Origin: Methanococcus vannielii SB
GTDB taxonomy: Archaea; AGJL01; Methanococci; Methanococcales; Methanococcaceae
Direction of reading: 5' to 3'
Assembly (NCBI RefSeq): GCF_000017165.1
Contig: NC_009634.1
Span: 510,249 to 574,248, forward strand
Length of the DNA: 64,000 nt
Shown here: in pieces, positions 12,770 through 53,607 of the stretch
Layout: each line of letters opens with the position of its first letter
Numbering within the stretch: the first letter of the stretch is position 1
Made by a program: the position numbers and the translations under genes
Notes under the pieces: model-generated
The model's database searches: none
Told to the model about the DNA's origin: nothing
What the model saw: only the letters and a program-made list of their open reading frames with translations

Positions 12770-14044
12770 ATGGTAATGACACTAGCTGAGAAAATTTTGG
12801 CAAAAGCTTCAGGAAATAGTCAGGTTTCACCTGGAGATATCGTAATGGCAAAAGTAGAAACTGCAATGGTTCATGACATCACTGGCCCGCTTTCAGTAAA
12901 TACGCTGAAAAAAGAAGGTATTGAAAAAGTATGGGATAATGAAAAAATAGTTATTCCATTTGACCACCAAATCCCCGCAGACAGTATCAATGCTGCAGAA
13001 AACCATATATTAATGAGAAACTTTGTAAAAGAGCAGGGCATTAAGCATTTTTATGACATAAGGGAAGGAGTATGCCATCAAGTACTACCTGAAAAAGGTC
13101 ATGTTGTTCCAGGAACCGTAATTGTTGGTGCAGACAGCCATACGTGTACTTATGGTGCATTTGGTTCATTTGCAACAGGCATTGGAAGTACAGACATGGC
13201 AGCAGTATTTGCAACAGGAGAATTATGGTTCAAAGTTCCAGAAACAATGTATTTTAATATTTCTGGACATTTAAAGCCGGAAGTAATGTCTAAGGACATA
13301 ATTTTAAGTATAATTGGAATGGTTGGTGCAGACGGTGCTACATATAAAGCTGCACAGTTTGCTGGTGAAACCGTAAAAGAAATGACAATTGCATCAAGAA
13401 TGACGATGTCAAACATGGCAATTGAAATGGGCGGAAAAGCAGGCTTAATTGAACCGGATAGAAAAACAGTAGAGTATGTTAAAACTGCAATGGAAAAAAA
13501 TAACACAGCAAGGCCTTTTGATATAATCATTGGGGACAAAAATGCAGAGTATGAAGAAAAGTTTGAAATTGAAGTAAATGACTTAGAACCCGTAATGGCG
13601 TGCCCACATAATGTTGATAATGTAAAAACCGTTAGAGAAGTTTCAGGAACCCCTATTGACCAAGTATTTATTGGTTCATGTACAAACGGAAGAATAGAAG
13701 ATTTAAGGGCAGCTTTAAACGTAATTGAAAAACACGGGGGAATTTCAAAAGATATCCGGGTTATAGTAACGCCTGCTTCAAGAAGTGTAATGCTAAAAGC
13801 ACTTGATGAAGGATTAATTCAGAAATTCTATAAGTACGGCTGTGTTGTAACAAACCCTTCATGTTCTGCATGTATGGGTGCATTGTACGGTCTTTTAGGG
13901 CCTAAAGAAGTTGGTATTGCAACATCAAACAGGAACTTTAGGGGGAGAGAAGGTTCGCTTGAATCAGACGTTTATCTTGCATCGCCAATTACTGCGGCTG
14001 CATGTGCAGTTAAGGGGGAAATTATCGACCCAAGAGACCTTTAA
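12770..14044 (+). CDS. leuC: 3-isopropylmalate dehydratase large subunit
   Basis: A 424-aa aconitase-superfamily subunit that isomerises 2- and 3-isopropylmalate in leucine synthesis, or a related 2-oxosuberate/homoaconitate step. The [4Fe-4S] ligands are in IGSCTNGR and PSCSACMG (C-x2-C). Methanogens have two paralogues, LeuC and the homoaconitase subunit HacA. The text here ([27 protein letters not shown]) matches my memory of the LeuC-type M. jannaschii protein rather than HacA, so I favour leuC. GGAGGT lies 5 nt before the ATG. The small subunit is not in the window. Confidence 0.9.
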
Positions 14045-14133
14045 GATAATTAAAATAAATAACTTATAAAATAACTTATAAAAATAGTATTAAATTCTTC
14101 TTTTTTAAAATTTTAAAAAGTATGAAAAATATT

Positions 14134-14496
14134 TTAATATTTTAATATTTTTAAAATGTCAAAAACACTCAATGTGCCAATAATCTTATCATTTTCGCCT
14201 ACAACAGGATAAGCAAAAACTTCGTTTTCAATCATTTTAAGAATTAATTCGTCAGTTAATTCATCGTTTGGACTTAAAATCTTAATTTCATCTAAAAATA
14301 ACATTGCTTCCTCAATTTTTACATGCTTACAACCAGTAAGTAAGTCTAATGATGTAATCCAACCTACAATCTTTCCATCCTCGACCACTGCTGCATAGCT
14401 TTTTTTACTTTTGTAAAGCTTTTGAATTACTTCTCCAGCTATATCATTAAGTAAAAACGTTAAAAAGTCTTCGTTCATGACGTCTTTTATAAGCAA
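14134..14496 (-). CDS. CBS-domain pair protein
   Basis: A 120-aa protein made of two tandem CBS motifs, one over about residues 1-55 (IKDVMNEDF, VVEDGKIVGWIT) and one over 60-120 (YPVVGENDKIIGTLSVFDIL). CBS pairs bind adenine nucleotides or related ligands and regulate partners. The start is TTG 14496, 4 nt after GGTGG. The gene lies 25 bp downstream of ehbN on the same strand, so it may be co-transcribed with it; a link to hydrogenase regulation would be inference only. Confidence 0.85.
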   Translation of the reverse strand: MLIKDVMNEDFLTFLLNDIAGEVIQKLYKSKKSYAAVVEDGKIVGWITSLDLLTGCKHVKIEEAMLFLDEIKILSPNDELTDELILKMIENEVFAYPVVGENDKIIGTLSVFDILKILKY

Positions 14497-14521
14497 AAAA
14501 CCACCTTAAAACGTAAAAAAA

Positions 14522-15649
14522 TTATTTTTTAAATGGCTCTTTTAAAACCATTAATCTATCAGTACAAGTAAAACATGGGTCGCAACTTGCGATAATTAAT
14601 TCTGCATCGCTTACATGGTAACCTTTTACAATTTCTTCCATTGCTCCAAGGTTTGTTGCAGTTGGAGTCCTTACTTTTGCCTGTCTTACTTGCCCCTCAT
14701 CATCAAGCCCATAGGAGTAGTATTGTTCCCCCCTCTGTGCTTCAGTATAACAATCAATTGGCTTAAATTTGTGGAGTTCATAGTTTGGATTGTAAATTCT
14801 ATTGTCTTTACAGTCTTTTAGCATATTTATTGCCTGCTTGATGATTTTTATACTTTCAAAACACTCGTAAAATCTAACAGCAACTCTTGAAAGTACATCT
14901 CCGCCATCAAGCAATATTTCATCAAATTCATAAGGGTCGTATTCAGGAACATAGCCCATTTTTCTTACGTCTGATTTTATGTTACTCCCCCTTGCGGTCG
15001 GGCCCACTGCATGAAATTTTGCAGCGGTTTTTCTATCCAAAATACCAATATTTTTAACCCTTGAAACAATCATCGGGTCATTTAATGTCCGGTTTATCAA
15101 TTTAGTAAGTCCTTCTTCATATTTTTCAATTCGATCAAGTATAACTGGAATTTGGCTATCCGAAATATTGCATCTTGGCCGTACACCCCCAATAATGGGG
15201 CATGAATAATGAACTCGGTTTCCGGATATTTCAAAAAATAACTGCATTATGGGCTCCCTTAACATGAAACTTCTCATTGACATTGTTTCATGACCCAAAA
15301 TTTCAAAAGCATGTCCAAAAAGTAGTGTGTGGGAATGTAGCCTCTCTAATTCTTCTACAATAAGCCGTATATGGTTTGCACGTTCTGGCACTTCAATTTT
15401 GCACCCGATTTCAACAACCCTTGCAGCACTCCAAAGGTGAATGTGTGAACAAATTCCGCATATTTTTTCGCACAATATACATGCTTTTTCAACGGGAAGT
15501 CCCTCCATTAACCTCTCTACACCCCTATGGTTTACACCAATTGTAAGTTCAGCATCTTTTACTATTTCATCTTCAATAAAAAGTCTTAAACGATGCGGTT
15601 CAAGCATTGTTGCGTGAACAGGCCCAATTGCGATTTCTCCTTCGTACAT
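14522..15649 (-). CDS. ehbN: Energy-converting hydrogenase large (NiFe) subunit, EhbN type
   Basis: A 375-aa [NiFe] large subunit of a membrane-bound energy-converting hydrogenase. The nickel ligands are in [10 protein letters not shown] (Cys64, Cys67) and in the C-terminal [10 protein letters not shown]. Ehb uses the ion gradient to reduce ferredoxin with H2 for carbon fixation. I choose EhbN over EhaO because this gene is isolated from other hydrogenase subunits, as I recall for ehbN in M. maripaludis; the assignment between the two is less certain than the family. ATG 15649 follows GTGAG by 4 nt; an in-frame GTG at 15658 overlaps that site. Divergent to hdrCB. Confidence 0.88.
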
Positions 15650-30695: not shown

Positions 30696-31868
30696 GTGTA
30701 TAAAAAGGGAATTTTTGCAGTTATTCTTTCAATAATGATTGCAATTGGTTTTTCAGGATGCATTGATGCCTTTGGAAATTCTGAAAACAGAGGAATTAAT
30801 AAAAATATAGGTGTTGAAAACAATCCCGTAACGTTTATAGATTTAGCGGGGCGTGAGGTTACAATAAATGGCAAGGTTAACAAAATAGTAACTTATGGCG
30901 CAGCACTACGTCTTGTGACGTATTTAGATGCTTCAGATAGGGTAGTTGCAATATCAGAATCTGAAAAAACACAAAGTGCCAAATCTGCACCATATGTACT
31001 TTCAAACATTGAAAAATTTGAAAAATTGCCTGCTGTTGGAACGCATGGAAACCTAAACCACGAAGCAATAATAAATCTCAATCCAGATGTAATTATTATT
31101 ACTGGAAGCAGTACTACTGCAAGCGATGCAGATAACCTTCAAGAAAAAACAGGCATTCCAGTAGTTGTTTTAAATTATTACGGTTCTGGAAATATTGATC
31201 CAATATTAAACGATGGAGATCTTATAACGTCCCTTCAAATTTTAGGATTAATTCTTGAAAAGGAAAAAAGAGCAGATGAATTAATAAAATATATGGGCGA
31301 TATGAAAAAAGATCTTAATGAAAGAACAAAGGATGTTCCAGATAGTGATAAAAAAACAGTTTACATGGGCGGCCTTGCATGGAATGGTGCACGAGGTATT
31401 GAAAGTACCTATGCAAATGGCGGCGTAATGAAGATGATACATGCTAAAAACGTTGCTGATTCTATGGGAACTGTTGGACATATAACATCACTAGATAAAG
31501 AAAGAATTCTTGATTGGGATCCTGATATATTATTTATAGACGGTTGGGGCCTTAGTGCAGTTGTTTTAGATGACTATAAAAAGACTCCTGAATATTATAA
31601 CACCCTTTCAGCAGTCCAAAATAATGAAGTATATGTAACTTTACCATACATCTGGTGGGGCAATAATATTGAAACAATATATGCAGATGCTTATTTTATA
31701 GGGAAAGTGTTATACCCGGAACAGTTTAAGGACATAAACCCTGAAGAGAAAGCCGATGAAATATTTGAGTTTTTCGTTAAAAAGCCAGTATATAATGAAT
31801 TTCCAAGACCGGGAGGCTTTGGAAAAATTGATTTAAAAACAGGAACAATATCACCATTAGATAACTAA
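30696..31868 (+). CDS. ABC transporter substrate-binding lipoprotein 1 (iron/cobalamin type)
   Basis: A 390-aa periplasmic-binding protein of the type that carries iron complexes, haem or cobalamin. The leader ends at FSGC with Cys22 as the lipidated residue. The two-lobed Peripla_BP_2 fold shows at VTFIDLAGREVTING, NLNPDVIIITG and WDPDILFIDGWG. It starts at GTG after GGTGA. The leader is almost identical in DNA and protein to that of the next gene, so the two arose by duplication. It is the first of four consecutive binding proteins serving one permease/ATPase set (35871-37693). Confidence 0.92.
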   Translation: MYKKGIFAVILSIMIAIGFSGCIDAFGNSENRGINKNIGVENNPVTFIDLAGREVTINGKVNKIVTYGAALRLVTYLDASDRVVAISESEKTQSAKSAPYVLSNIEKFEKLPAVGTHGNLNHEAIINLNPDVIIITGSSTTASDADNLQEKTGIPVVVLNYYGSGNIDPILNDGDLITSLQILGLILEKEKRADELIKYMGDMKKDLNERTKDVPDSDKKTVYMGGLAWNGARGIESTYANGGVMKMIHAKNVADSMGTVGHITSLDKERILDWDPDILFIDGWGLSAVVLDDYKKTPEYYNTLSAVQNNEVYVTLPYIWWGNNIETIYADAYFIGKVLYPEQFKDINPEEKADEIFEFFVKKPVYNEFPRPGGFGKIDLKTGTISPLDN

Positions 31869-31993
31869 CATAATTCTAATATTATCCTTTTTTTAAAACC
31901 GTTATTATTCTTTTAAATTTATATTTAACGGTTTTAAACATTTATTTACTCCATTAATACTTTTTTTTCTAGTATGTGTATCATTTAATACAT

Positions 31994-32016
31994 ATCGAAA
32001 CTTTTATGTACTCGAT
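31994..32016 (+). promoter_or_regulatory. Shared promoter element, copy 2, flanked by ATCGA/TCGAT
   Basis: AAACTTTTATGTACT recurs at 31998-32012, here within a short inverted repeat ATCGA (31994-31998) and TCGAT (32012-32016). CGAAA followed by CTTTTATG reads as BRE plus TATA. The third and fourth binding-protein genes have comparable CGATAAACTTATA and CGAAAGTTATAT elements. Confidence 0.45.
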
Positions 32017-32065
32017 ATTCCATTTATTTTGATTATATTAATTATATCTTTAAAAGGGTGAAAAA

Positions 32066-33184
32066 GTGTATAAAAAGGGAATTTTTGCAGTTATTATTTC
32101 AATAATGATTGCAGTTAGCTTTTCAGGTTGTGTTGATAATAATGCTGGAAATTCAAACGATGTTTCTAAAACAATAACTATTCAAGATATGGCTGGAAGA
32201 ACAGTTGAAATTCCGGAAAATGTTGAAAAAATTGTTTGTAGCGGTTCTGGAACTTTGAGACTTGTTACATACATTCAAGCATTAGATATGTTAGCAGGTG
32301 TTGAATCTTGTGAACATGCGGAAATAAAGGGTTCGGGAAAACCGTACCATATTGCAAATATTGAATACTTTAAAACGTTACCTGTAATTGGTACTCAGCA
32401 CGTTGAAAATTTAAATCATGAAAACGTAATCAAGGTAAACCCTGATGTTATAATAATTTCATATTCAGAAGCAAGTGTTGCTGATGGAATTCAGGAAAAA
32501 ACAGGAATTCCAGTTATAATTATTAACTACGGTGAATTTGAATCATTCTGTGATAAAGACCTTGTTGGTTCACTTACGCTACTTGGTAAAGTATTAAATA
32601 GAGAAAAAAGAGCAGCAGAAGTTATAAAATTCTTTAGTGATTCTGAAAAAGACATTCAAAATAGAGTTAAAGGTGTTTCTGATAGCGAAAAACCTACCGT
32701 ATATATTGGAGGACTAAGTGCAAGAGGAGCACATGGAATACACAGTACTTCAAGTCAGTATGCGCCATTTGAAGCTTTAAAAGCTAAAAACGTTGCTTCA
32801 AGTCTTGAACTAAAAAAGCAGATTTTTGTTGACAAAGAAAAAATTATAGAATGGAATCCTGAAATTATTTTTATTGATGCAGGCGGATACAATTTAATAA
32901 GTGAAGATTACAATAAAAATCCCGATTATTACAACACATTAAGTGCATTTACAAACGGTAAGATTTACACAACGTACCCTTACAACTATTATACAACAAA
33001 TTTCGGTACTGCATTAGCAAGTACGTACTATATTGGAACAGTATTATACCCTGAACAGTTTAAAGATATTAATCCAGACGAAAAAGCTGATGAAATATAC
33101 GAATTTTTAGTTGGAAAACCAGTATATACTGTACTTTCAGAAAATTACCCTGGTTTTCAAAATGTTAACTTTTCAAAACAGTAA
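32066..33184 (+). CDS. ABC transporter substrate-binding lipoprotein 2
   Basis: A 372-aa Peripla_BP_2 protein, lipobox FSGC with Cys22. GTG start after GGTGA. Domain landmarks: ITIQDMAGRTVEIPENVEK, KVNPDVIIISYSEA, WNPEIIFIDAGGYN, LYPEQFKDINPDEKADEIYEF (conserved near the C-terminus of all four paralogues). The first 60 nt of the gene are almost identical to the previous one, whereas the binding-pocket regions differ. Different iron chelates or corrinoids may therefore be captured by each paralogue. Confidence 0.92.
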   Translation: MYKKGIFAVIISIMIAVSFSGCVDNNAGNSNDVSKTITIQDMAGRTVEIPENVEKIVCSGSGTLRLVTYIQALDMLAGVESCEHAEIKGSGKPYHIANIEYFKTLPVIGTQHVENLNHENVIKVNPDVIIISYSEASVADGIQEKTGIPVIIINYGEFESFCDKDLVGSLTLLGKVLNREKRAAEVIKFFSDSEKDIQNRVKGVSDSEKPTVYIGGLSARGAHGIHSTSSQYAPFEALKAKNVASSLELKKQIFVDKEKIIEWNPEIIFIDAGGYNLISEDYNKNPDYYNTLSAFTNGKIYTTYPYNYYTTNFGTALASTYYIGTVLYPEQFKDINPDEKADEIYEFLVGKPVYTVLSENYPGFQNVNFSKQ

Positions 33185-33254
33185 ATAATTTTTATTTTTA
33201 TTTTTATTTTTTTCGAATTTTAAACCAGTTCAATTTTTCTTTAATTGAATTAAT

Positions 33255-33267
33255 CGATAAACTTATA
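33255..33267 (+). promoter_or_regulatory. BRE/TATA-like element before binding protein 3
   Basis: CGATAAACTTATA lies 63 nt before the TTG start of the third binding-protein gene and matches the layout of elements before genes 2 and 4. It suggests an independent promoter within the cluster. Confidence 0.4.
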
Positions 33268-33323
33268 CGCTTGGCTACCGCAAATAATACTGTATTTTTT
33301 TTAATCGTAATTAAGGTGAGATA

Positions 33324-34442
33324 TTGGTTAATAAAATAATATCCATTTTAACCCTTTGCATCATAACTTTTGTACTGGGGTTTTCAGGATGTATTGAAGG
33401 TATTGAAGAAGATATAGAAAATAATGTTGAAAAAATTCAAATTATAGATATGGTTGGAAGAACTGTTGAAGTTCCAAAAAATGTTGAAAAAATTGTATGT
33501 AGTGGTCCAGGATGCCTAAGACTCATTTGCTATATGGATTCAGTGGATAAAGTTATAGGAATTGAATCTTTTGAAAGTAATGACTATATGGGAAGACCAT
33601 ATAGAATTGCAAACCCCCAATTTTCAAGTCTCCCCATAATTGGAAATGGCGGTCCAAGAGATATTAATGTTGGGCCCGACCCTGAAAAAGTAATGACCAT
33701 AATGCCTGATGTTATATTCATAACATATATGGAAGCAGGTAAAGCTGATGAATTACAGAGAAAAACGGGAATTCCGGTTGTAGTTTTAACATATGGAACG
33801 TTTGGAACATTTGAAAATGAAAAAGTATTTGAATCATTTAATATACTTGGAAAAATCCTTGAAAAAGATAAAAGGGCAGTTGAAGTATCTTCTTTTATAG
33901 AAGAAGTTCAAAAAGACCTCGATGAAAGAACTAAAGATATTCCAGAAAGTGAACGGCCTAGTGTTTATGTTGGGGCTATTGGATACCAAGGAACGCAAGG
34001 AATTGATAGTACTGAAGGGTCATACCCTCCACTTGAAGCCGTAAATACTAAAAACATTGCAAAAAATGCATCAACAGCTCATATTTTCATAAGCAAAGAA
34101 AAATTAATAGAATGGAACCCCGAATACATATTTATTGATGGCGGAGGAAGTTTTAAAGTAAAGGAAGATTATAATATCAATCCAGATTACTATAATTCGC
34201 TTGATGCATTTAAAAACGGTAATGTATACCTTCTTTTGCCATTTAATCATTATATGACAAATATTGGAACTGCACTTGCTGATTCATACTATATTGGAAA
34301 AGTACTTTATCCAGAAGAATTTTCAGATATCGATCCTGAAGAGAAAGCTGATGAAATATACAAATTTTTAGTTGGAAAAGAAGTGTATAATGTTATGAAA
34401 GAAGAATACGGCGGCTTTAAAAGAGTCGATTTTTTAAACTGA
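33324..34442 (+). CDS. ABC transporter substrate-binding lipoprotein 3
   Basis: A 372-aa Peripla_BP_2 lipoprotein, lipobox FSGC with Cys23. TTG start 4 nt after GGTGA (33315-33319). Landmarks: IQIIDMVGRTVEVPKN, TIMPDVIFITYMEAG, WNPEYIFIDGGG and the C-terminal EEKADEIYKFLVGKEVYN. It is closer to paralogue 2 than to paralogue 1 over most of its length, judged by eye. Same likely function of delivering a metal complex to the shared permease. Confidence 0.92.
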   Translation: MVNKIISILTLCIITFVLGFSGCIEGIEEDIENNVEKIQIIDMVGRTVEVPKNVEKIVCSGPGCLRLICYMDSVDKVIGIESFESNDYMGRPYRIANPQFSSLPIIGNGGPRDINVGPDPEKVMTIMPDVIFITYMEAGKADELQRKTGIPVVVLTYGTFGTFENEKVFESFNILGKILEKDKRAVEVSSFIEEVQKDLDERTKDIPESERPSVYVGAIGYQGTQGIDSTEGSYPPLEAVNTKNIAKNASTAHIFISKEKLIEWNPEYIFIDGGGSFKVKEDYNINPDYYNSLDAFKNGNVYLLLPFNHYMTNIGTALADSYYIGKVLYPEEFSDIDPEEKADEIYKFLVGKEVYNVMKEEYGGFKRVDFLN

Positions 34443-34556
34443 AATAAAATATAAATTTCTTTTTTTATGACGTTTTTTAATTTAATTTAAATATTCACTT
34501 TTTTGATATTTAGTATTACTAAATTTTTATTTTTATCTAAATTATACTAATTAAAT

Positions 34557-34568
34557 CGAAAGTTATAT
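34557..34568 (+). promoter_or_regulatory. BRE/TATA-like element before binding protein 4
   Basis: CGAAAGTTATAT lies about 58 nt before the GTG start. Its position and form parallel the elements before the other binding-protein genes. Confidence 0.4.
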
Positions 34569-34619
34569 CTATTATTATTACTTATTTTTTAAAAGTATTA
34601 TTAAAAAATAGGTGGTGCA

Positions 34620-35753
34620 GTGTATAAAAAAATAGCCAGTGTAGTTTTAATGTCGCTTTTAATAGCAACACTCGGAATTTCAGGCTGTATTGATAGTTCA
34701 GAGCCTCATTCTGATTTAAAAATAGATTCTAATAAAATTATCGTAATAGATGATGCTAAGCGAACTGTTGAAGTTCCAAAAAATATTGAAAAAATAGCAA
34801 CGTTAAATGGAGCACTTCGTGAGGTAGTTTATTTTGGTGAACAAGAAAAGGTAATAGGCCTTGAATTTAGGGAGTCTTCTCAAAAAACTACTGGAGCATT
34901 TCCTTCAAGTTTTGACCTTCCATATATTATTGCATACCCAGAACTTAGAAATTTACCTCCGATAAGAACTGGTTCAGATATAAACTTTGAAGGAATTTTA
35001 AAAGCTCAGCCCGATGTAATAATAATTGGAAGCTTTTCAAAAGCTGATGCAGATTCCCTTCAAGAAAAAGTAGGAATTCCAGTTGTAGTCATATATGTTG
35101 ATTCAATTGGAACCGATGCTCAAAACCAAAGGTACTTTGAATCAGTGGAAACCCTTGGAAAAGTACTTAGAAAGGAAAATAGGGCTAAAGAACTAATTTC
35201 ACTTTTTAAAGGTTACGAAGATGACCTTAAAAATAGGGTAAAAAATATTCCAGAAAGTGAAAGGCCAACCGTTTATGTTGGTGGAAGAGCATATAATGGG
35301 GCCCATGGAATTTTAGGTACTGACCCAAAGTGGCCACCATTTACATTAATTAATGCAAATAATATCGCATCAGGTCTTTCAGACGAAAGTATGGGAATTT
35401 ACATAAGTAAAGAAGAATTGCTAAATAAAAATCCCGATTACATTTTCTTAAGTGCTGCTTCAAAACATAAAATTTCAGAGGATTTAAAAGAACCCACATA
35501 TAAAGAACTCTCCGCATTTTCAAATGAAAACGTTTACATGGTTCCACCATATTGCTGGTATTTCTTTAACAAAGAACATGCACTTATAAACGCTTACTTT
35601 ATAGGTTCAATAGTATATCCTGAAGAGTTTAAAGATATTGTAATTGAAGAAAAAGCTGACGAAATATATAAAAATTTCCTTGGAAAACCAATATATGATG
35701 AAATAATGACCCACGCCTTTTTTGTAGGTCATAAAAAAATGGAAATTGATTAA
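34620..35753 (+). CDS. ABC transporter substrate-binding lipoprotein 4
   Basis: A 377-aa Peripla_BP_2 lipoprotein, lipobox ISGC with Cys23. GTG start after GGTGG. Landmarks: IVIDDAKRTVEVPKNIEK, LKAQPDVIIIGSFSKAD, KNPDYIFLSAASKH and EEKADEIYKNFLGKPIYDE. It is the most diverged of the four paralogues: the final lobe lacks the FIDGG segment. A distinct ligand is therefore likely. The permease gene follows 117 bp downstream. Confidence 0.92.
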   Translation: MYKKIASVVLMSLLIATLGISGCIDSSEPHSDLKIDSNKIIVIDDAKRTVEVPKNIEKIATLNGALREVVYFGEQEKVIGLEFRESSQKTTGAFPSSFDLPYIIAYPELRNLPPIRTGSDINFEGILKAQPDVIIIGSFSKADADSLQEKVGIPVVVIYVDSIGTDAQNQRYFESVETLGKVLRKENRAKELISLFKGYEDDLKNRVKNIPESERPTVYVGGRAYNGAHGILGTDPKWPPFTLINANNIASGLSDESMGIYISKEELLNKNPDYIFLSAASKHKISEDLKEPTYKELSAFSNENVYMVPPYCWYFFNKEHALINAYFIGSIVYPEEFKDIVIEEKADEIYKNFLGKPIYDEIMTHAFFVGHKKMEID

Positions 35754-35870
35754 TAATCAATCTTACTTTTTAATACTTTTTTAATGGTTTATATATATGT
35801 AATATTAACTAATTATTTATATGCAAGAATAATAACTATTTATTAATTTTACTATCGATTATGTGATAAT

Positions 35871-36920
35871 ATGGAAAATGTTACTAATAACTACAAAAAA
35901 TTCACTGCTAAAAAAATTTTATTTGGAATTATACTTTCTATTGTATTGATTTTACTAATCATATACGCACTTTGTAGCGGAGATTACCCGTTAACAATAT
36001 CCCAAATTATAAGTGCCCTTTTAGGAAATGAAAGTGGCCCTGTAAACCTTGTTATATGGAATATAAGGATTCCAAGAATACTAGCTGCAATAATTTGTGG
36101 AATTGCACTTTCAACTGCTGGTGCAGTTATGCAGTGTACTTTAAAAAACCCGCTTGCGTCACCATTTACACTTGGAGTTTCACAAGGCGCAATGTTTGGT
36201 GCTTGTCTTGCAATAGTGTTTTTTGGAGTTGGAAGTTCAACAAGTGCCGGTAAAATATCCGTAATAAGCCACTATCCGATAACAGTATTTGCATTTTTAG
36301 GTTCATTACTTGGAGTAGCTGCAATATTACTCATTTCAAGGTTAAAAAATCTTGCTCCTGAAGCCCTTGTACTTGCAGGGGTTGCAGTAAGTTCACTATT
36401 TACGGCTGGAACAACACTTCTACAATACTTTGCAGACTCCATACAACTTGCAGCAATGGTTTACTGGTCTTTTGGAGACCTTGGAAGGCCCCTTTGGCCA
36501 GAAGTAAAGATTATGGCGGTTGTAACTACGATTTCATTAATCTACTTTATATATAAAAGGTGGGATTACAATGCCCTTGAAAGTGGGGAAGAAACTGCTA
36601 AGTCATTAGGCGTACATACTGACAGAGTAAGAATCATGGGGATGTTATTTTCCTCCCTTGTAACATCAGTTTGTGTTGCATTCTTAGGTATAATAGGATT
36701 TGTAGGCCTCATATGTCCACATATTGTAAGAATAACTGTTGGCGGGGATTATAGACATTTAATTCCACTTTGTGCACTATTTGGTGCAATACTCGTACTT
36801 GCCGCAGATACTTTTGCTAGAACCATTATTTCGCCGATAGTACTTCCAGTAGGTATTTTAACCTCGTTTTTAGGGGCCCCAATGTTTTTGTACTTACTTA
36901 TGAAGATGTATAAAAAATAA
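35871..36920 (+). CDS. FecCD-family ABC transporter permease
   Basis: A 349-aa integral membrane protein with about ten hydrophobic helices, typical of BtuC/FhuB/FecCD permeases for iron complexes or cobalamin. Diagnostic segments are [33 protein letters not shown] and the C-terminal [29 protein letters not shown] precedes the ATG, and a TATA-like TTTATATATATG lies near 35785. The ATPase gene begins 14 bp after the stop, so permease and ATPase are co-transcribed. Confidence 0.95.
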
Positions 36921-36934
36921 TTAAGGTGGTAAAA

Positions 36935-37693
36935 ATGATAGTTTCAGTAGATGACGTTGAATTTAAATATAAAAGTATCCAAATACTAAAAGACGTCAAA
37001 TTTGAAGTAAAAAGTGGTGAAATTGTATCCATTTTAGGAATAAACGGGGCAGGAAAGACTACATTAATGAAGTGTATAAATAAAATACTTGCTCCAAAAA
37101 AAGGAACAATCCTAATTGAAAATAGCGATTTAAGCAAAATAAATAGACATGATCTGGCAAAAAAAGTAGGATATGTCCCTCAAAGGTCAAATGGAAACTT
37201 TATGACCGTATTTGATTCTCTTCTTTTAGGTAGACGACCGCATATAAAATGGGAAGTTTCAAAAAAAGACATTGAAATTACTGAAAACGTACTTAAACTT
37301 CTTGACCTTGAAAAATACGCACTTAGAAATACCAATGAATTAAGCGGTGGAGAACTTCAAAAAGTAATAATCGGGCGAGCCCTTGTACAGGAGCCACAAA
37401 TAATATTACTTGATGAACCTACAAACAATCTCGACTTGAAAAACCAGCTTGAAGTCATGAAAATATTAAAAGAAGTTTCTAAAAAGAATAACATTACATC
37501 AATAATAGTAATGCATGACATTAATTTATCTTTACGATATTGCGATAAATTTTTAATGCTAAAAGATGGAAGCGTATTTGCAGAAGGCGGAAAAGAAATA
37601 ATAACTTCGAAAAATATCATGGAAGTATATGGCGTAAATACGCAAGTTCATGAGTTTAATGGCCATCTTACGATAATTCCTGAAGAAAGTTAA
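36935..37693 (+). CDS. ABC transporter ATPase, iron/cobalamin type
   Basis: A 252-aa ABC ATPase. Walker A is GINGAGKTT, the signature LSGGELQKV and Walker [12 protein letters not shown], followed by the switch histidine in VMHDINLS. This subgroup energises FecCD permeases. ATG 36935 follows GGTGGT by 4 nt; the in-frame GTG at 36926 is inside that site. It is the only ATPase available in the cluster for four binding proteins. Confidence 0.95.
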
Positions 37694-46288: not shown

Positions 46289-49200
46289 GTGAATAAAAAA
46301 TCAGCGAGAGCGCTGTTTTTAGTATTAGTTATGGTGCTCTCGAATATGGGGGGAGTCATGGCTCTCAACCCTACAACCAGTGGCTGTGTTGATTGCGGCA
46401 CTTCAAACGGGAATAGCGGTTCGGGAACCATTATAATTGATTGTGATCAGTGCAATACTGACGGAAGATGTTTTAATGTAGCTATTACCTCACCAGCAGA
46501 TATGTCTGAATGGTGCGACCTTGTTCCAATTAGTGGAACAATAGTACCTTGTGCTCATGACACTATTGGCTGTGCTGACTATATAGTAGTTTATTCAAAA
46601 TACTTGGGAGACTATGAATGCCTTCCGGGAAATGCAAGTTCAATTGCAAATACGGGTTCAGGATGGGACTACGTAGGTAGCGACACAACTTTAGAAGGAG
46701 AATGTCCTACACTATGGGGATTAGACTGGCCAATTTGCTGCGAAATTGATGGATGGTATGTATTAAGAGCAATACTCTATAATGGATGCGATGTTCAAGT
46801 CGGATGTCCATCAGATCCAGTATATGTATACTTCGATAAAGGGGTTATGGTAAGCCTTGCATTACCTGATACATTATACTGTGGAGGAGTTATTGAAGGA
46901 TGTTTAAATCAAACCTGTGACTGCGTTGATTACATATTAATCACTGCAGAATACATGGGAGATATGCCAAAATGCGAACCATGTATGCCTACAAGAACAT
47001 ATGTTATAGACAGAGCAGAGTTTAAAAGCGCAATGTGCTGTGACTACACGTTTGACGTATTTTTCAATGATTTATACTGCGAAGGAGAATATAAAATAAC
47101 TGCTACGCCATATGCGGACTGTACTGATAACTGCATTTACGATGGCGTTCAAATTGGGGAAAGTTACGTAGGATACCTCGAAATTATAAGAGGAGATGTA
47201 TGCTTTGAAATACTTTGTCCTGCACCAGTTTCACCTGAATGTGGAATGACGCTTTGTGGGCCGATTAATTTTAAAGGTATATTAAACGACCCTTGTAGCG
47301 GGGCAAAATATATCGAGTTTTACGCTGAAAAAACAGGCGAATATAATTGGTGCTCTGGAGCATGTTATGAATCATGTAATGCATGTGATGGAGAAGAAAT
47401 TATAAGCTTTGACATTAAACCTACAAACTTACCTGAAAATATCTGTCCAAAGTGTGGAACTACAATGAATCCTATAATTTGTGGCCCATGTGGTGGAACA
47501 ATTCAAGGATACAAATGTCCAAACTGCCCTTCAAACCCGGGTAATCCTAACGGTGGAACGGGAGTTTCAGAGTGTATTTGTCAAAATCCTGCTGACCATG
47601 GCAAGTATATTTCTAAATCAGCATTAGAAAATATGATTTACCTTGGAAGCACGTATGCTACAATGCCAAACTGGTCATTTGTTACAAATGAAATGTGTAA
47701 TCTTGATTCAGGATGCTATAAAGTATATGCTGTAGTAATTGACAGTTGTGAATGCGATGAAGAATATAGATATGATGACATTTCATTTGCATACTGTAAT
47801 GAGAGAGAGTTAACAATAGAACTTGATGACTGCATAGTAACTGAATGCATAGATGGAGAAGAATGTACTAAAATATACAAAGTAAAAAGTGGAACGGTAA
47901 CTGCGAGAGGAAATATTACAGTTCCAACATGCTGGATAAACTATCCTGAATACGTAGGTCTTGAATACAGCCTTGGACAAATGCAAATATGTGGCCCAAT
48001 TATTTGGGGCGATTGGATACCTGCAAGCTGTATTGACGGGTCAATTACGTGGAATAACGATGGAGAATGCCTTAAATCAGGTGTTTGGGAAACTACATGG
48101 TGTACTCCAGAAGATATTGAAAGCAAATATTTTGTAAAAGTAAGAGGAGTTGCAAAAGAAGGATGTGGGGAATTCTATTCTGGAGACATTAAAACAAGTA
48201 TTTACAACAAGTTTGACGTTAACATATTTGACCCATGCGAAGGAAATACAATATACAACGGTAAAGTTATAAGAGGATTTGTATGGGCGGAATACGATGG
48301 ATATGGTGGAATGTTAAGTAAAAACGTATGTTTACCTGACCACGTAGATTTATACTGGAGACCATACGGAGCCCAACACTGGGCCCCAATGGATAGCGCA
48401 TTTTTACACTGGAAAAATTCTGAACAGTATATCGACTTTATGGATTACGGAATAGACCCTGGAATGCCAAAATTACCTAAACTTAACTACAAGTGGGGTA
48501 ACTGGGCATACTGGGACGTTACATGGACATCATGCATGGTAAACTGCGTAGATAATGGGCACTACGAGATAAAAGCAGTTGTAGAACCCTGTATAGATGA
48601 TGAATGTGGAACATTTGAACGTGCAGAATACATTATTGATGTATGGGTAGACGATACATCCGGTGTCATGATATCCAAACCATTTGACGGACAAACTGTA
48701 TGCGATAACTTATGGGTATACGGTACTGCAGTTGGTGCAGGAGTTACAAATGTAGACTTCTACGTGTCAACCGACAACGTTACGTGGACACTCTATAAAG
48801 AAGACATCGATGTAAACGTAAATGATGGAAGATGGAAAGCACCACTTAACACTTGCTGCTTTGAAGATGGGCCACTCTACTTAAAGGCTGTTGTAGTTGG
48901 GCCGTGTGACATTAGCGAAAGTACAATTATGGTAAACGTGCTAAACGCTATAGAAATGGATCTTACATGCCCTAACGATTGCGTATGCTACGTAAACGGC
49001 GACAAAATGCCAATAAGGGGGACATTAACTGGTTGTGATGTAGATAATAGGGTAGAAAATGTAAAAGTATACATGGGTGCAGGTAACGGCCAACTTATTG
49101 GAATAATTCCTGCTAAAGACTTTAGATACGTTGGAGATGGAGTATGGGAATGGGGAATGTGTTTTAACCCATGTGTTTTAAACGGCGGTTCAACACAGCT

Positions 49201-50773
49201 TATCGCTAGAGCAACATACAGGTGTGGAAATAACTACTTTAACATCGATACTGGCCCACAAAGACCAGTTATACAGCATGATCCAAACCTTAAAATAATT
49301 GATATTACTGGGCCTGGAAGCAGTCCATCAGTTGGCGGAACTGTTTCAATAGAGGGTACTTTAGAAGGAACATGTATTGACTACCTAACATTTGAATACA
49401 GGAAAATATGTGAACCAAATGGGCAACCACTAAGCGATTGGATGCCATTCCCTGGAGTTAGCGTATTAACTGTTCCGGAAATGTGCATGTGTGAAATTTG
49501 CATGTGGACTTTTGACATAGATACGTGTGGAATGGATGGACTATACGAAATAAGGGTCAAAGCATTTGGCTGGCCATGTGGTGAAATAGCCTCAGATACT
49601 GACTTTATACGGATAAATAATAAAATTGGAATTACGCTAGATGTTCCTGCAATAAATTCAGGAATAAAAAGTGGAACTATTGAAGTTTCAGGTACAGTTG
49701 AAAACTGCCCTGTAATTGACAGAATAGAACTTTATTACGTATTAAATGGAGATTTCTTCTTAATTAGTGATGAAATTACATGTAGTAATGAAACTTGGAG
49801 TTACATGTGGGACACCACAACTGTAGCAAACGGAGGATACTGCCTTATTGCTTACGCATACGATGATGATTGCGACAGTATGGCGTCATCAAAAACGAGA
49901 GCCATTTGTATTGAAAATAATGGAGTACCTCCAGTAATAAACGAAACAAACGACACGATATTTAGAGAATGTGTAAAAATAGAAACAGTGTGTTATGTAC
50001 CATGCACAATGCTTAGAGTAACATTCAACGATACAGTATCAATTAATGATTCATATAACCCTGCAAGTCCATTAGATGGATTTGAAATTAATTACGGAAA
50101 CTTCGGGCCAAATCCAACAATGGAAGAGGATGCAACAGATGACCATGTAATAATAATTAACTTGGGAACTGGTTACGTTATCACGCCAGGAGTTACCGAA
50201 ATAAAACTCAAGCCAAATCAAACTGCAATACTCGGTCCAAATGGAATTCCTATTGTAGACTGTAGTGCTGAATTAAAAACAATTCCTCAAGCTCAGAACA
50301 GTGGTAATTCTGAAAATTCCGGTGTAATAACACTTGGAAACATGAAAATGTTTTCAGTACCTTGTAAAGTAAATACTGGGCAGATGGTTGGAGATGCAGG
50401 CGTTAATAACGGTGCATTTGTAAAATTCACCAATGGAAAATGGGAAGCTGTTAGTGAATTCAAACCATTAGAAGGCTACGTATACATTGGTACCTTTGAA
50501 GGAGATATGCCAATATATATAGAACCATTATTACCAACTGACACACCACCTGAAATACAATTAGCTTCAGGATGGAACCTTGTCGGGGTAAATACTTACG
50601 GAGGATCTTTCGATCCAGTACCATGTAATGAATTCCTTGGAACTGCACCCATTAGTAAATTATTAGAATTCAGTTCCAGCGGATGGTTAAAACTCAATGG
50701 TGGAAGTAACCTTGTACCAACTAATGCATATTGGGCATATGCTGATTCAGGATGCAGTTTTGCCGGACAATAA
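46289..50773 (+). CDS. Large secreted cysteine-rich Ig-like surface protein
   Basis: A 1494-aa exported protein with a signal peptide (hydrophobic LFLVLVMVLSNMGGVMA). By my count it contains about 92 cysteines (6%), far above any neighbour. The body is a series of about nine or ten modules of 100-120 residues resembling bacterial Ig-like domains (repeating pattern: isolated strand, G-T-x-x-G/C, W-x, DG-x-Y-x-hydrophobic). A zinc-ribbon-like stretch with CPKC, CGPC and CPNC lies at about residues 386-415. The C-terminus holds a SGWNLVGV domain seen in archaeal surface proteins, and no membrane anchor. Likely cell-surface or S-layer-associated. Starts at GTG inside a hairpin. Confidence 0.85.
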   Translation: MNKKSARALFLVLVMVLSNMGGVMALNPTTSGCVDCGTSNGNSGSGTIIIDCDQCNTDGRCFNVAITSPADMSEWCDLVPISGTIVPCAHDTIGCADYIVVYSKYLGDYECLPGNASSIANTGSGWDYVGSDTTLEGECPTLWGLDWPICCEIDGWYVLRAILYNGCDVQVGCPSDPVYVYFDKGVMVSLALPDTLYCGGVIEGCLNQTCDCVDYILITAEYMGDMPKCEPCMPTRTYVIDRAEFKSAMCCDYTFDVFFNDLYCEGEYKITATPYADCTDNCIYDGVQIGESYVGYLEIIRGDVCFEILCPAPVSPECGMTLCGPINFKGILNDPCSGAKYIEFYAEKTGEYNWCSGACYESCNACDGEEIISFDIKPTNLPENICPKCGTTMNPIICGPCGGTIQGYKCPNCPSNPGNPNGGTGVSECICQNPADHGKYISKSALENMIYLGSTYATMPNWSFVTNEMCNLDSGCYKVYAVVIDSCECDEEYRYDDISFAYCNERELTIELDDCIVTECIDGEECTKIYKVKSGTVTARGNITVPTCWINYPEYVGLEYSLGQMQICGPIIWGDWIPASCIDGSITWNNDGECLKSGVWETTWCTPEDIESKYFVKVRGVAKEGCGEFYSGDIKTSIYNKFDVNIFDPCEGNTIYNGKVIRGFVWAEYDGYGGMLSKNVCLPDHVDLYWRPYGAQHWAPMDSAFLHWKNSEQYIDFMDYGIDPGMPKLPKLNYKWGNWAYWDVTWTSCMVNCVDNGHYEIKAVVEPCIDDECGTFERAEYIIDVWVDDTSGVMISKPFDGQTVCDNLWVYGTAVGAGVTNVDFYVSTDNVTWTLYKEDIDVNVNDGRWKAPLNTCCFEDGPLYLKAVVVGPCDISESTIMVNVLNAIEMDLTCPNDCVCYVNGDKMPIRGTLTGCDVDNRVENVKVYMGAGNGQLIGIIPAKDFRYVGDGVWEWGMCFNPCVLNGGSTQLIARATYRCGNNYFNIDTGPQRPVIQHDPNLKIIDITGPGSSPSVGGTVSIEGTLEGTCIDYLTFEYRKICEPNGQPLSDWMPFPGVSVLTVPEMCMCEICMWTFDIDTCGMDGLYEIRVKAFGWPCGEIASDTDFIRINNKIGITLDVPAINSGIKSGTIEVSGTVENCPVIDRIELYYVLNGDFFLISDEITCSNETWSYMWDTTTVANGGYCLIAYAYDDDCDSMASSKTRAICIENNGVPPVINETNDTIFRECVKIETVCYVPCTMLRVTFNDTVSINDSYNPASPLDGFEINYGNFGPNPTMEEDATDDHVIIINLGTGYVITPGVTEIKLKPNQTAILGPNGIPIVDCSAELKTIPQAQNSGNSENSGVITLGNMKMFSVPCKVNTGQMVGDAGVNNGAFVKFTNGKWEAVSEFKPLEGYVYIGTFEGDMPIYIEPLLPTDTPPEIQLASGWNLVGVNTYGGSFDPVPCNEFLGTAPISKLLEFSSSGWLKLNGGSNLVPTNAYWAYADSGCSFAGQ

Positions 50774-50834
50774 TTAACAACAATGGCTGAAAATTAAATT
50801 CAGCCATTCCTCTTTATTAGGGGGTGTGATTTAC

Positions 50835-52802
50835 ATGAAAAAGCTATTTACTTTATTATTGGTAGTTGCACTTGTTTCCAGCATGAGTATGGCATCCGCC
50901 ACAGGAGGAATTCCACAATTGCCTCAAAATTTTTACGGTGGAGTATATTTAAATGATCTTCCTGCATCTGGAACGTTAAAACTACTCATAAATGGTGTAG
51001 AAGAAGACCATGTTGTAGTTACTAATGGTGTATTTGGTAAAGGAATATTAGATAAAAAATTAACTGCTAGTGGAAAATCAGGAGATAAAATCACTTTTTC
51101 ATTTCAATCTAGCGGATATACAATAAATTCAGCTTACACGATATATCTTGTAAGTTCTAGTAAATATGTTTCGGATATTGACTTTCAGTCCGGAGTAAAC
51201 ACCGAAATCGTATTAAAATTTAATGGTACGGGAAGTAGTGATCCAGGAAGTAGTGATCCAGGAAGTAGTGATCCAGGAAGTAGTGAACAATCAATGCCAT
51301 TAAATCCTGAATTATTCTACGGTACTGCTAAATTAGGAGACTCAAATGCTTTTGGAACACTAAAAGTTTATGTTGATGGGGTGCTTCAAGACTCAATCGT
51401 AGTCCAAAATGGGGCATTTGGAGGCCCTGGGCCACTCAATACTAAATTAATTGCAACGGGATACGTTGGAAAAACTAATGAAGTTAAATTCTCGCTTGAA
51501 TCAGATGGTAAAACATATAATGGCTTTACTGCAAAAGTAGGGGATAATACATATACAAATAAACTTCCATACGTTGAAGCAACAGTATGCCTTATCGAAT
51601 TAAAATTCTCAAATTCGGAAAATACTGGAAATGGCGATAATTCAGGAACTAATCCAATAAATGGGACTAATAATTCTGGAATGCCACTTAATCCAAATAT
51701 ATTCTACGGTACTGCTAAATTAGGAGACTCAAATGCTTTTGGAACACTAAAAGTTTATGTTGATGGGGTGCTTCAAGACTCAATCGTAGTCCAAAATGGG
51801 GCATTTGGAAATTCTTGCGTACTCGCAGATAAATTAATTGCAACGGGATACGTTGGAAAAACTAATGAAGTTAAATTCTCGCTTGAATCAGATGGTAAAA
51901 CATATAATGGCTTTACTGCAAAAGTAGGGGATAATACATATACAAATAAACTTCCATACGTTGAAGCAACAGTATGCCTTATCGAATTAAAATTCTCAAA
52001 TTCGGAAAATACTGGAAATGGCGATAATTCAGGAACTAATCCAATAAATGGGACTAATAATTCTGGAATGCCACTTAATCCAAATATATTCTACGGTATA
52101 GCATATTTAGGCACATCGTTACCGTCAAGTACATTAAACGTTTACGTTGATGGGGTGCTTCAAGACTCAATTGAACTTAAAACTGGAGCATTTGGAGGCC
52201 CTGGCCCACTTGATGATAAATTAATTGCAACGGGATACGTTGGAAAAACTAATGAAGTTAAATTCTCGCTTGAATCAGATGGTAAAACATATAATGGCTT
52301 TACTGCAAAAGTAGGGGATAATACATATACAAATAAACTTCCATACGTTGAAGGGCAACATTACATAATTATTACATTCACGACATCAACAGAATCGTCA
52401 GATACTGGAAATGGCGGTTCTAGCGGAGGAAATACCGGCGGTGGCTCTAGCGGAGGAAATACTGGTGGAGGAAATACTGGCAGTTCTACTGTATCTGGAA
52501 CTACATCAACAGTTAGTACATCTAGCACTAAAACCGGCTCAAATATGGAAACTTCAACAAAAACCAGCACATCAGGTAGTGCAGTTGAACCTTCAGACTC
52601 AGAAACCACGCCTAAAACAAGTGTTTCGGAAATCTCAACAGCTGATGATGGATCAGGCGAACAGTCTGCATTACTTCAACAGGAAAGTTCATTGACTGGG
52701 CTTAATTTGTCACTTACGGTTGCTGCAATACTCTTGATATCCATTGCATTAATTGCTGGATGGTACCATTCAAAAGCCAAACCTGAAGTTGTACATAATT
52801 AA
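50835..52802 (+). CDS. Membrane-anchored surface protein with tandem repeats
   Basis: A 655-aa exported protein. A signal peptide is followed by four beta-rich modules (FYG start, VYVDGVLQDSI, then GGPGPL and KLIATGYVGKTNEVKFSLES). The first is diverged and the last three are nearly identical with a 387-bp (129-aa) period. Then comes a Gly/Ser/Thr-rich linker of about 120 residues, likely glycosylated, and one C-terminal membrane helix ([18 protein letters not shown]) with a short basic tail. ATG 50835 follows GGGGTGTGA. It starts 61 bp after the cysteine-rich protein and is probably co-expressed, perhaps anchoring it; that is inference. Confidence 0.87.
   Translation: MKKLFTLLLVVALVSSMSMASATGGIPQLPQNFYGGVYLNDLPASGTLKLLINGVEEDHVVVTNGVFGKGILDKKLTASGKSGDKITFSFQSSGYTINSAYTIYLVSSSKYVSDIDFQSGVNTEIVLKFNGTGSSDPGSSDPGSSDPGSSEQSMPLNPELFYGTAKLGDSNAFGTLKVYVDGVLQDSIVVQNGAFGGPGPLNTKLIATGYVGKTNEVKFSLESDGKTYNGFTAKVGDNTYTNKLPYVEATVCLIELKFSNSENTGNGDNSGTNPINGTNNSGMPLNPNIFYGTAKLGDSNAFGTLKVYVDGVLQDSIVVQNGAFGNSCVLADKLIATGYVGKTNEVKFSLESDGKTYNGFTAKVGDNTYTNKLPYVEATVCLIELKFSNSENTGNGDNSGTNPINGTNNSGMPLNPNIFYGIAYLGTSLPSSTLNVYVDGVLQDSIELKTGAFGGPGPLDDKLIATGYVGKTNEVKFSLESDGKTYNGFTAKVGDNTYTNKLPYVEGQHYIIITFTTSTESSDTGNGGSSGGNTGGGSSGGNTGGGNTGSSTVSGTTSTVSTSSTKTGSNMETSTKTSTSGSAVEPSDSETTPKTSVSEISTADDGSGEQSALLQQESSLTGLNLSLTVAAILLISIALIAGWYHSKAKPEVVHN
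51231..51285. repeat. 15-bp in-frame microrepeat (PGSSD linker), 3.7 copies
   Basis: GGAAGTAGTGATCCA repeats perfectly at 51231, 51246 and 51261, with a partial fourth copy at 51276. It encodes a Gly-Ser-Ser-Asp-Pro linker between the first and second surface modules. A likely slippage site for length variation between strains. Confidence 0.95.
51314..52353. repeat. 387-bp tandem repeats within the surface-protein gene
   Basis: Three units begin at 51314, 51701 and 52088 (exact 387-bp offsets). Units 1 and 2 are near-identical in full, including the linker, except for a block around the GGPGPL segment. Unit 3 differs in its first 120 bp but is identical over the last 130 bp or so to both others. 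The patchwork is what recombination or gene conversion among repeats would leave. Confidence 0.95.
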
Positions 52803-52998: not shown

Positions 52999-53607
52999 AT
53001 GAAAAAAATAAGTTTAATTCTTTCAATTATTCTATTGAGTAGTTTTTGCCTTTGTACTGAAAAAAATAGTAACGATTTATTTGAGTACAGCGACAGTACT
53101 GTATTTATGGTAACTGTTGGCGAAAACAAGGTTCCAATAGAATTAAGAGCAAAAATTAACGATTCATTTACTACATTATTTAAAAATACGGATAAAAATG
53201 AAATAAAAAGTACGTATTATAGTGAAAATCATGAAATAATATATATTGAATACGATAGGTCGCTCCCTGCGGCAGAAGGAGGCGTTAGCGTTGCAGATTT
53301 AAAATTGAAATTAATATGGGCAAACAGTTACTTTAACCCTCATGTTATAATTGTTCCTGGAGATTTAACTGAAAATGGAACTTATGCGGATATATTTTAT
53401 AAAGATGGAAGTATTGAATCTACCTTTTTGAATAACGAACATGTGGATAAAGTTAAAAATAGCAATAAAACAATTGTAATTGATTTTCAAAGAACTGAAA
53501 ATCCTGCAACAATTGAAAAATATAATAATACATATATTATCGAAGGAAATTCGCTAATAGAACTTGATAAAGCAGAATCAATGTTTATAATTGCACTTCT
53601 TTCATAA
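52999..53607 (+). CDS. Exported lipoprotein of unknown function
   Basis: A 202-aa protein with a signal sequence (KKISLILSIILLSSFCLC), in which Cys17 or Cys19 could be lipidated. The mature part, about 180 residues, has alternating beta-strand-like stretches and two N-glycosylation sequons (for example NDS, NKT). I recognise no family. GGTGAAAAC precedes the ATG. The 196-bp gap upstream is AT-rich with TATATATAATAATAA at about 52945 as a possible promoter. Confidence 0.75.
   Translation: MKKISLILSIILLSSFCLCTEKNSNDLFEYSDSTVFMVTVGENKVPIELRAKINDSFTTLFKNTDKNEIKSTYYSENHEIIYIEYDRSLPAAEGGVSVADLKLKLIWANSYFNPHVIIVPGDLTENGTYADIFYKDGSIESTFLNNEHVDKVKNSNKTIVIDFQRTENPATIEKYNNTYIIEGNSLIELDKAESMFIIALLS

Follow-up and report, generated by a model that had tools for sequence, protein, structure and literature searches.

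The window analysed here is a 64,000-nucleotide stretch of the Methanococcus vannielii SB genome (NCBI RefSeq assembly GCF_000017165.1, contig NC_009634.1, forward-strand positions 510,249 to 574,248), a genome consisting of one contig of 1,720,048 bases. Within it (coordinates below are those of the window), an open reading frame (ORF) with a GTG start codon encodes an exported, cysteine-rich protein, hereafter the Cys protein, and the next gene encodes its putative anchor; we describe the Cys protein as a probable row of immunoglobulin-like (Ig-like) beads with selectively conserved loop cysteines, and the two genes as a candidate surface-display pair. The original prediction of a secreted protein of 1494 amino acids (aa) with about 92 cysteines was borne out: there is one ORF; its product starts with a signal peptide and has 92 cysteines in all, among them eight CxxC motifs and three CC pairs, and its antisense is closed by stops in the frame read.

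46289 to 50773, plus strand: Cys-rich exported protein, 1494 aa, 92 Cys (ORF reading; orthologs L013, L014 and L015)
46289 to 46363, plus strand: signal peptide, about residues 1-25, cleavage site inferred (ortholog alignment, sequence reading)
50826 to 52802, plus strand: partner/anchor protein, 658 aa, 52 bp downstream of the Cys protein ORF (sequence analysis)

Cysteine makes up 6.16% of the protein, compared with an average of 1.25% in other, hand-picked genes of the window (binomial P ~1e-34 for at least 92 cysteines in 1494 residues at the 1.25% rate). Full-length orthologs, found in three of the six other genomes of the genus, are 67-69% identical and contain 110-113 cysteines; their signal peptide is nearly invariant in the alignment, and it is the orthologs above all that are strongly acidic (about 250 Asp plus Glu against 55 Lys plus Arg). 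The original prediction hung on conservation of the cysteines between modules and between strains, and this is what we found: 84 of the 92 (91%) do not vary among the four species, whereas the figure for all residues is 60% (hypergeometric P ~5e-12). Cysteine is the most conserved residue type in the four-ortholog alignment, followed by tryptophan at 83%. The excess of invariant cysteines over the general level of conservation indicates that selection acts on the cysteines, rather than composition drifting.

Manual division of the chain gave nine Ig-like modules, covering residues 61-1212, followed by a tenth domain or linker:

46469 to 46846, plus strand: Ig-like module 1 (residues 61-186), 10 Cys (module alignment)
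46847 to 47197, plus strand: Ig-like module 2 (187-303), 11 Cys (module alignment)
47198 to 47803, plus strand: Ig-like module 3 (304-505), 22 Cys, bearing the zinc-ribbon insert (module alignment)
47804 to 48208, plus strand: Ig-like module 4 (506-640), 9 Cys (module alignment)
48209 to 48658, plus strand: Ig-like module 5 (641-790), 6 Cys, 9-11 in orthologs (module alignment)
48659 to 48949, plus strand: Ig-like module 6 (791-887), 4 Cys (module alignment)
48950 to 49282, plus strand: Ig-like module 7 (888-998), 7 Cys (module alignment)
49283 to 49624, plus strand: Ig-like module 8 (999-1112), 7 Cys (module alignment)
49625 to 49924, plus strand: Ig-like module 9 (1113-1212), Pfam Big_7 (Pfam match, AlphaFold model)
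49925 to 50308, plus strand: domain 10 or linker (1213-1340), 4 Cys (ortholog and module alignment)

That the modules are Ig-like, as originally proposed, is supported by a Pfam match, a structural model and the alignment of modules with one another. The Big_7 family (PF17957) matched with 34.5 bits against a gathering cut-off of 24.1, its best stretch being residues 1115-1184 in module 9; most other modules fall below Pfam detection. Module 9, the one module modelled as an Ig domain, with an input alignment made up of eight of the protein's own modules, gave an AlphaFold model (predicted local distance difference test, pLDDT, 87.8; predicted template modelling score, pTM, 0.79) with six strands of at least three residues and a short first strand, and Foldseek related this model to Ig domains in the PDB with template modelling scores of 0.6-0.74. 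A sequence search of the PDB with the whole protein gave no match. In its Pfam match, modelled Ig sandwich and tandem beads on an exported protein, the Cys protein resembles the multi-Ig Big_7 stalks of bacterial surfaces; unlike them it is 6.2% cysteine, has an F-G-loop cysteine in every bead and carries a zinc-ribbon-like insert.

Cysteines do recur at equivalent module positions, again in line with the original prediction. In the module 9 model, from which the loop assignment across modules was taken, cysteines lie in the B-C, D-E and F-G loops, with a possible further pair between strands F and G; these three loops share one end of an Ig sandwich. All nine modules have an F-G-loop cysteine in each of the four species (36 of 36 copies), seven of nine have a B-C-loop cysteine, at the same end of the bead, and five of nine an E-F-loop cysteine. 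A separate alignment of eight window modules placed the F-G cysteine in an invariant column; when cysteines were masked before aligning, it still coincided in five to seven of the nine modules, so the agreement is not merely made by the aligner. Were the beads arranged head to tail, their cysteine-bearing ends would meet at the joints.

Module 3 is interrupted by the cluster of CxxC motifs:

47375 to 47527, plus strand: four-knuckle zinc-ribbon-like insert in module 3 (CxxC pattern, profile matches, ortholog conservation)

The cluster originally noted at about residues 386-415 is real, and a fourth knuckle can be added to it at C363/C366, giving C363xxC366, C386xxC389, C398xxC401 and C410xxC413, with all eight cysteines invariant in the four species. 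A profile of the insert weakly matched zinc-ribbon proteins in the PDB (E 0.054) and matched a 58-aa HVO_2753-type protein in one archaeal genome with 22.3 bits, a score that none of 2000 shuffles with cysteines kept in place reached (best 18.1). The insert shares four CxxC knuckles, in the same order and at similar spacing, with the HVO_2753-type C(P)XCG zinc ribbons (PDB 9fny and 6sw9; Haloferax 6YDH, PMC11241148); those known are small proteins in their own right, described as binding RNA and taking part in translation, whereas the ribbon here lies within an exported Ig module. HVO_2753, with four motifs, binds one zinc, one of two predicted sites being filled (PMC11241148), and by analogy one zinc would be as likely as two in the module 3 insert.

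Beyond the beads, the C-terminal domain and the downstream gene form a unit of their own:

50309 to 50770, plus strand: C-terminal display domain (1341-1494), two GWN-type half-repeats, common to other cargos (sequence searches)
50910 to 51221, plus strand: partner LPxxFYG domain 1 (sequence comparison)
51297 to 51599, plus strand: partner LPxxFYG domain 2 (sequence comparison)
51681 to 51986, plus strand: partner LPxxFYG domain 3 (sequence comparison)
52068 to 52379, plus strand: partner LPxxFYG domain 4 (sequence comparison)
52707 to 52763, plus strand: partner C-terminal membrane helix (sequence reading)

The partner comprises a signal peptide, the four LPxxFYG domains, a Gly/Ser/Thr-rich linker and the membrane helix. 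The C-terminal ~150 aa of the Cys protein are shared with otherwise unrelated, low-cysteine exported proteins of other Methanococcales, whose cargos include a phytase-like plus metallophosphatase protein, CARDB and a NosD beta-helix, and directly downstream of most of these genes lies an LPxxYYG-domain gene with an anchor, this being S_layer_C in sister genera and a membrane helix in the window partner and its orthologs. Among 36 genomes, both domains occur in 12, the C-terminal domain alone in one, whose contig stops just past the domain, and the partner domain alone in none (Fisher P ~1e-8, a value that ignores the kinship of the genomes); at 15 of 20 places with a C-terminal domain, the partner domain follows 85-204 bp downstream on the same strand. 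The same gene pair in the same order is present in two distant archaea outside Methanococcales (L061, L062), which suggests a wider, unnamed archaeal surface-attachment system; the C-terminal domain was not found in 115 genomes of another archaeal phylum, although single cases exist elsewhere. Neither the GWN nor the LPxxYYG domain has a Pfam name or a PDB relative. Sub-threshold Pfam matches of the partner (DUF4183, the connectase C-terminal domain and a lectin) were weak and we took them as chance. In ortholog partner genes, long (DTG)n linkers separate the LPxxFYG domains, with a run of N there in L013 (~12970-15097).

The Cys protein is most likely one cargo of this two-gene display module, and because the gene pair is conserved, we infer that it is held by docking of its C-terminal domain on the partner's LPxxFYG domains. 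Such an arrangement would resemble cohesin-dockerin and other two-part attachment systems, in which a cargo domain meets a separately encoded, anchored receptor; unlike those, the pair has no domain with a cohesin or dockerin match in Pfam or the PDB, and the binding is a prediction. Partners in sister genera carry the anchor of the S_layer_MJ/S_layer_C anchored proteins of Methanococcales, whereas in the window partner a membrane helix takes its place and no S-layer domain was matched.

The Cys protein itself is more narrowly distributed. A search of 394 genomes gave no full-length match beyond the genus orthologs, the remaining matches being confined to the ribbon, the region of modules 8 and 9 or the C-terminal domain; the plasmids searched gave no match, and two scans of the genome_contigs set gave no homolog. 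Presence in other methanococci, which the original prediction had suggested checking, is therefore partial: four of seven genomes of the genus have the protein, but it is not general and no other searched genome has it. Neither member of the pair turned up in the three genus genomes without the Cys protein, where the upstream gene also has different surroundings. Gene order around the orthologs is kept, with a radical-SAM gene upstream and the partner, a small lipoprotein and ssuC/ssuB-type ATP-binding cassette (ABC) genes downstream.

The model we favour, which we hold to be about evenly poised between right and wrong, is a surface-displayed stalk of Ig beads that is retained by its partner, cross-linked by cysteines at its joints and binds metal through its ribbon. 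The protein would be exported by way of the signal peptide read from its sequence, and its nine Ig-like beads, modelled for module 9 and assigned by alignment for the others, would stand in a row; docking of the GWN domain on the LPxxFYG domains of the membrane-anchored partner, as the conservation of the pair suggests, would retain it at the cell. At one end of each bead the conserved cysteines lie mainly in the B-C, D-E and F-G loops and at the opposite end in the A-B and E-F loops, which would put them at the bead joints. There they would most likely link loops and adjacent beads, for the most part through disulfides but in part also as metal thiolates, and this cross-linking would produce a stiff, protease-resistant, acidic rod, in which the four-knuckle insert of module 3 would bind zinc (or iron). 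The protein would probably serve in adhesion or in capturing metals on the outside of the cell. A broader proposal is more tentative, and we lean against its holding in full: that some Methanococcus species build a dedicated extracellular thiol scaffold, an Ig-bead rod whose 90-110 conserved cysteines either are cross-linked without the known Dsb or VKOR enzymes or bind metals at each of the joints, and that a general archaeal cargo-anchor system of GWN domain plus LPxxYYG partner, so far undescribed as such, displays this rod. Relative to the original prediction, three main points are new: the two-gene display module, the reading of the CxxC cluster as a zinc ribbon and the placing of cysteines at bead joints.

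As to the state of the cysteines, we favour with moderate confidence mainly disulfides together with a metal-filled ribbon. Columns 156 and 181, both in module 1, hold cysteines that each of the three orthologs has and the window protein lacks, and the same is true of columns 994 and 1027, at the end of module 7 and in the B-C loop of module 8; both pairs sit where Ig topology would bring their members close, which suggests disulfides, although this signal of paired gain or loss rests on few events. Disulfide links have been proposed from cryo-electron tomography for the sheath of another strict anaerobe, Methanospirillum hungatei (PMC10593813); its sheath protein SH, likewise extracellular in a strictly anaerobic methanogen, differs in having two cysteines per subunit and an amyloid-like assembly, and we saw no sequence relation to the Cys protein. 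Several observations weigh against the cross-linked stalk. VKOR, DsbD_TM and Thioredoxin_4 (DsbA-like) had no match in the organism's own genome (PF01323 (DSBA) and DsbB were not searched), leaving no known route to dozens of disulfides; several between-species cysteine changes have no obvious pairing; the odd cysteine total (113) of two orthologs means that at least one cysteine in each is unpaired or metal-bound; and a single-sequence AlphaFold model of residues 354-504, the ribbon region, reached a pLDDT of 37. A DsbD-type gene is present in one ortholog-bearing genome. Cysteine parity per module, tried as a disulfide test, showed no clear pattern.

The lack of matches to VKOR, DsbD_TM and Thioredoxin_4 and the strictly anaerobic host would fit a scaffold in which most cysteines are reduced and bind metals as thiolates, capturing or buffering zinc, iron, nickel or cobalt outside the cell; the acidic surface and the ribbon would provide additional sites. 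The ribbon-like insert, the strong acidity, above all of the orthologs, the CC pairs and CxxC motifs, and the presence ~9 kb upstream of a siderophore/cobalamin-type ABC transporter that has four binding proteins point the same way; however, most cysteines outside the ribbon lie outside CxxC or standard metal motifs, singly in Ig-bead loops, some pairs were seemingly gained or lost together, and the transporter is not part of the same operon and may lie nearby by chance. We regard this scaffold as a serious but rather unlikely alternative. The disulfide-hardened fibre and the zinc or iron surface scaffold of the original prediction accordingly both survive in part: the CxxC cluster looks metal-binding, and the loop positions and few paired gains fit disulfides, each state being likely for part of the cysteines. 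An S-layer or cell-wall component with cysteines cross-linking its subunits is improbable; in other genera the S-layer outer domain (PF05124/TIGR01564) forms the end of the partner proteins, so the pair is probably S-layer-linked there, but neither the Cys protein nor the window partner matches TIGR01564 or PF05124, and the Cys protein is missing from three of seven genus genomes. The conductive structure also originally suggested found no support, and we consider a conductive or redox-active surface fibre very improbable indeed: only the cysteine density and CxxC motifs speak for it, whereas the four orthologs contain no CxxCH haem motif and no cytochrome or ferredoxin family matched.

Obligate anaerobes tend to keep cysteines out of exported proteins (PMC12453122), and 84 cysteines kept invariant in one exported protein are a clear exception among strict anaerobes, one that opens extracellular thiol chemistry in methanogens to direct testing; the close relative Methanococcus maripaludis is genetically tractable (PMC9430280). 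The gene-pair evidence, for its part, points to a general attachment of varied cargos to archaeal cell surfaces.

In a literature search, MMP1192-MMP1195 were not named and MMP1197 (ssuC) and MMP1196 were mentioned. Between the gene pair and the ssuC/ssuB-type ABC genes, positions 52999-53607 encode a 202-aa lipoprotein with weak DOMON similarity, which in M. maripaludis apparently corresponds to MMP1196, a gene that a transposon sequencing (Tn-seq) reanalysis lists (PMC4418687). The siderophore/cobalamin-type transporter region (30696-37693) consists of four tandem paralogous ABC binding lipoproteins, after which come single genes for a permease and an ATPase. At the window edge, an ORF at 66-491 is nearly identical to the C-terminal flavodoxin part of the gene at 677-1921, a partial tandem duplication.

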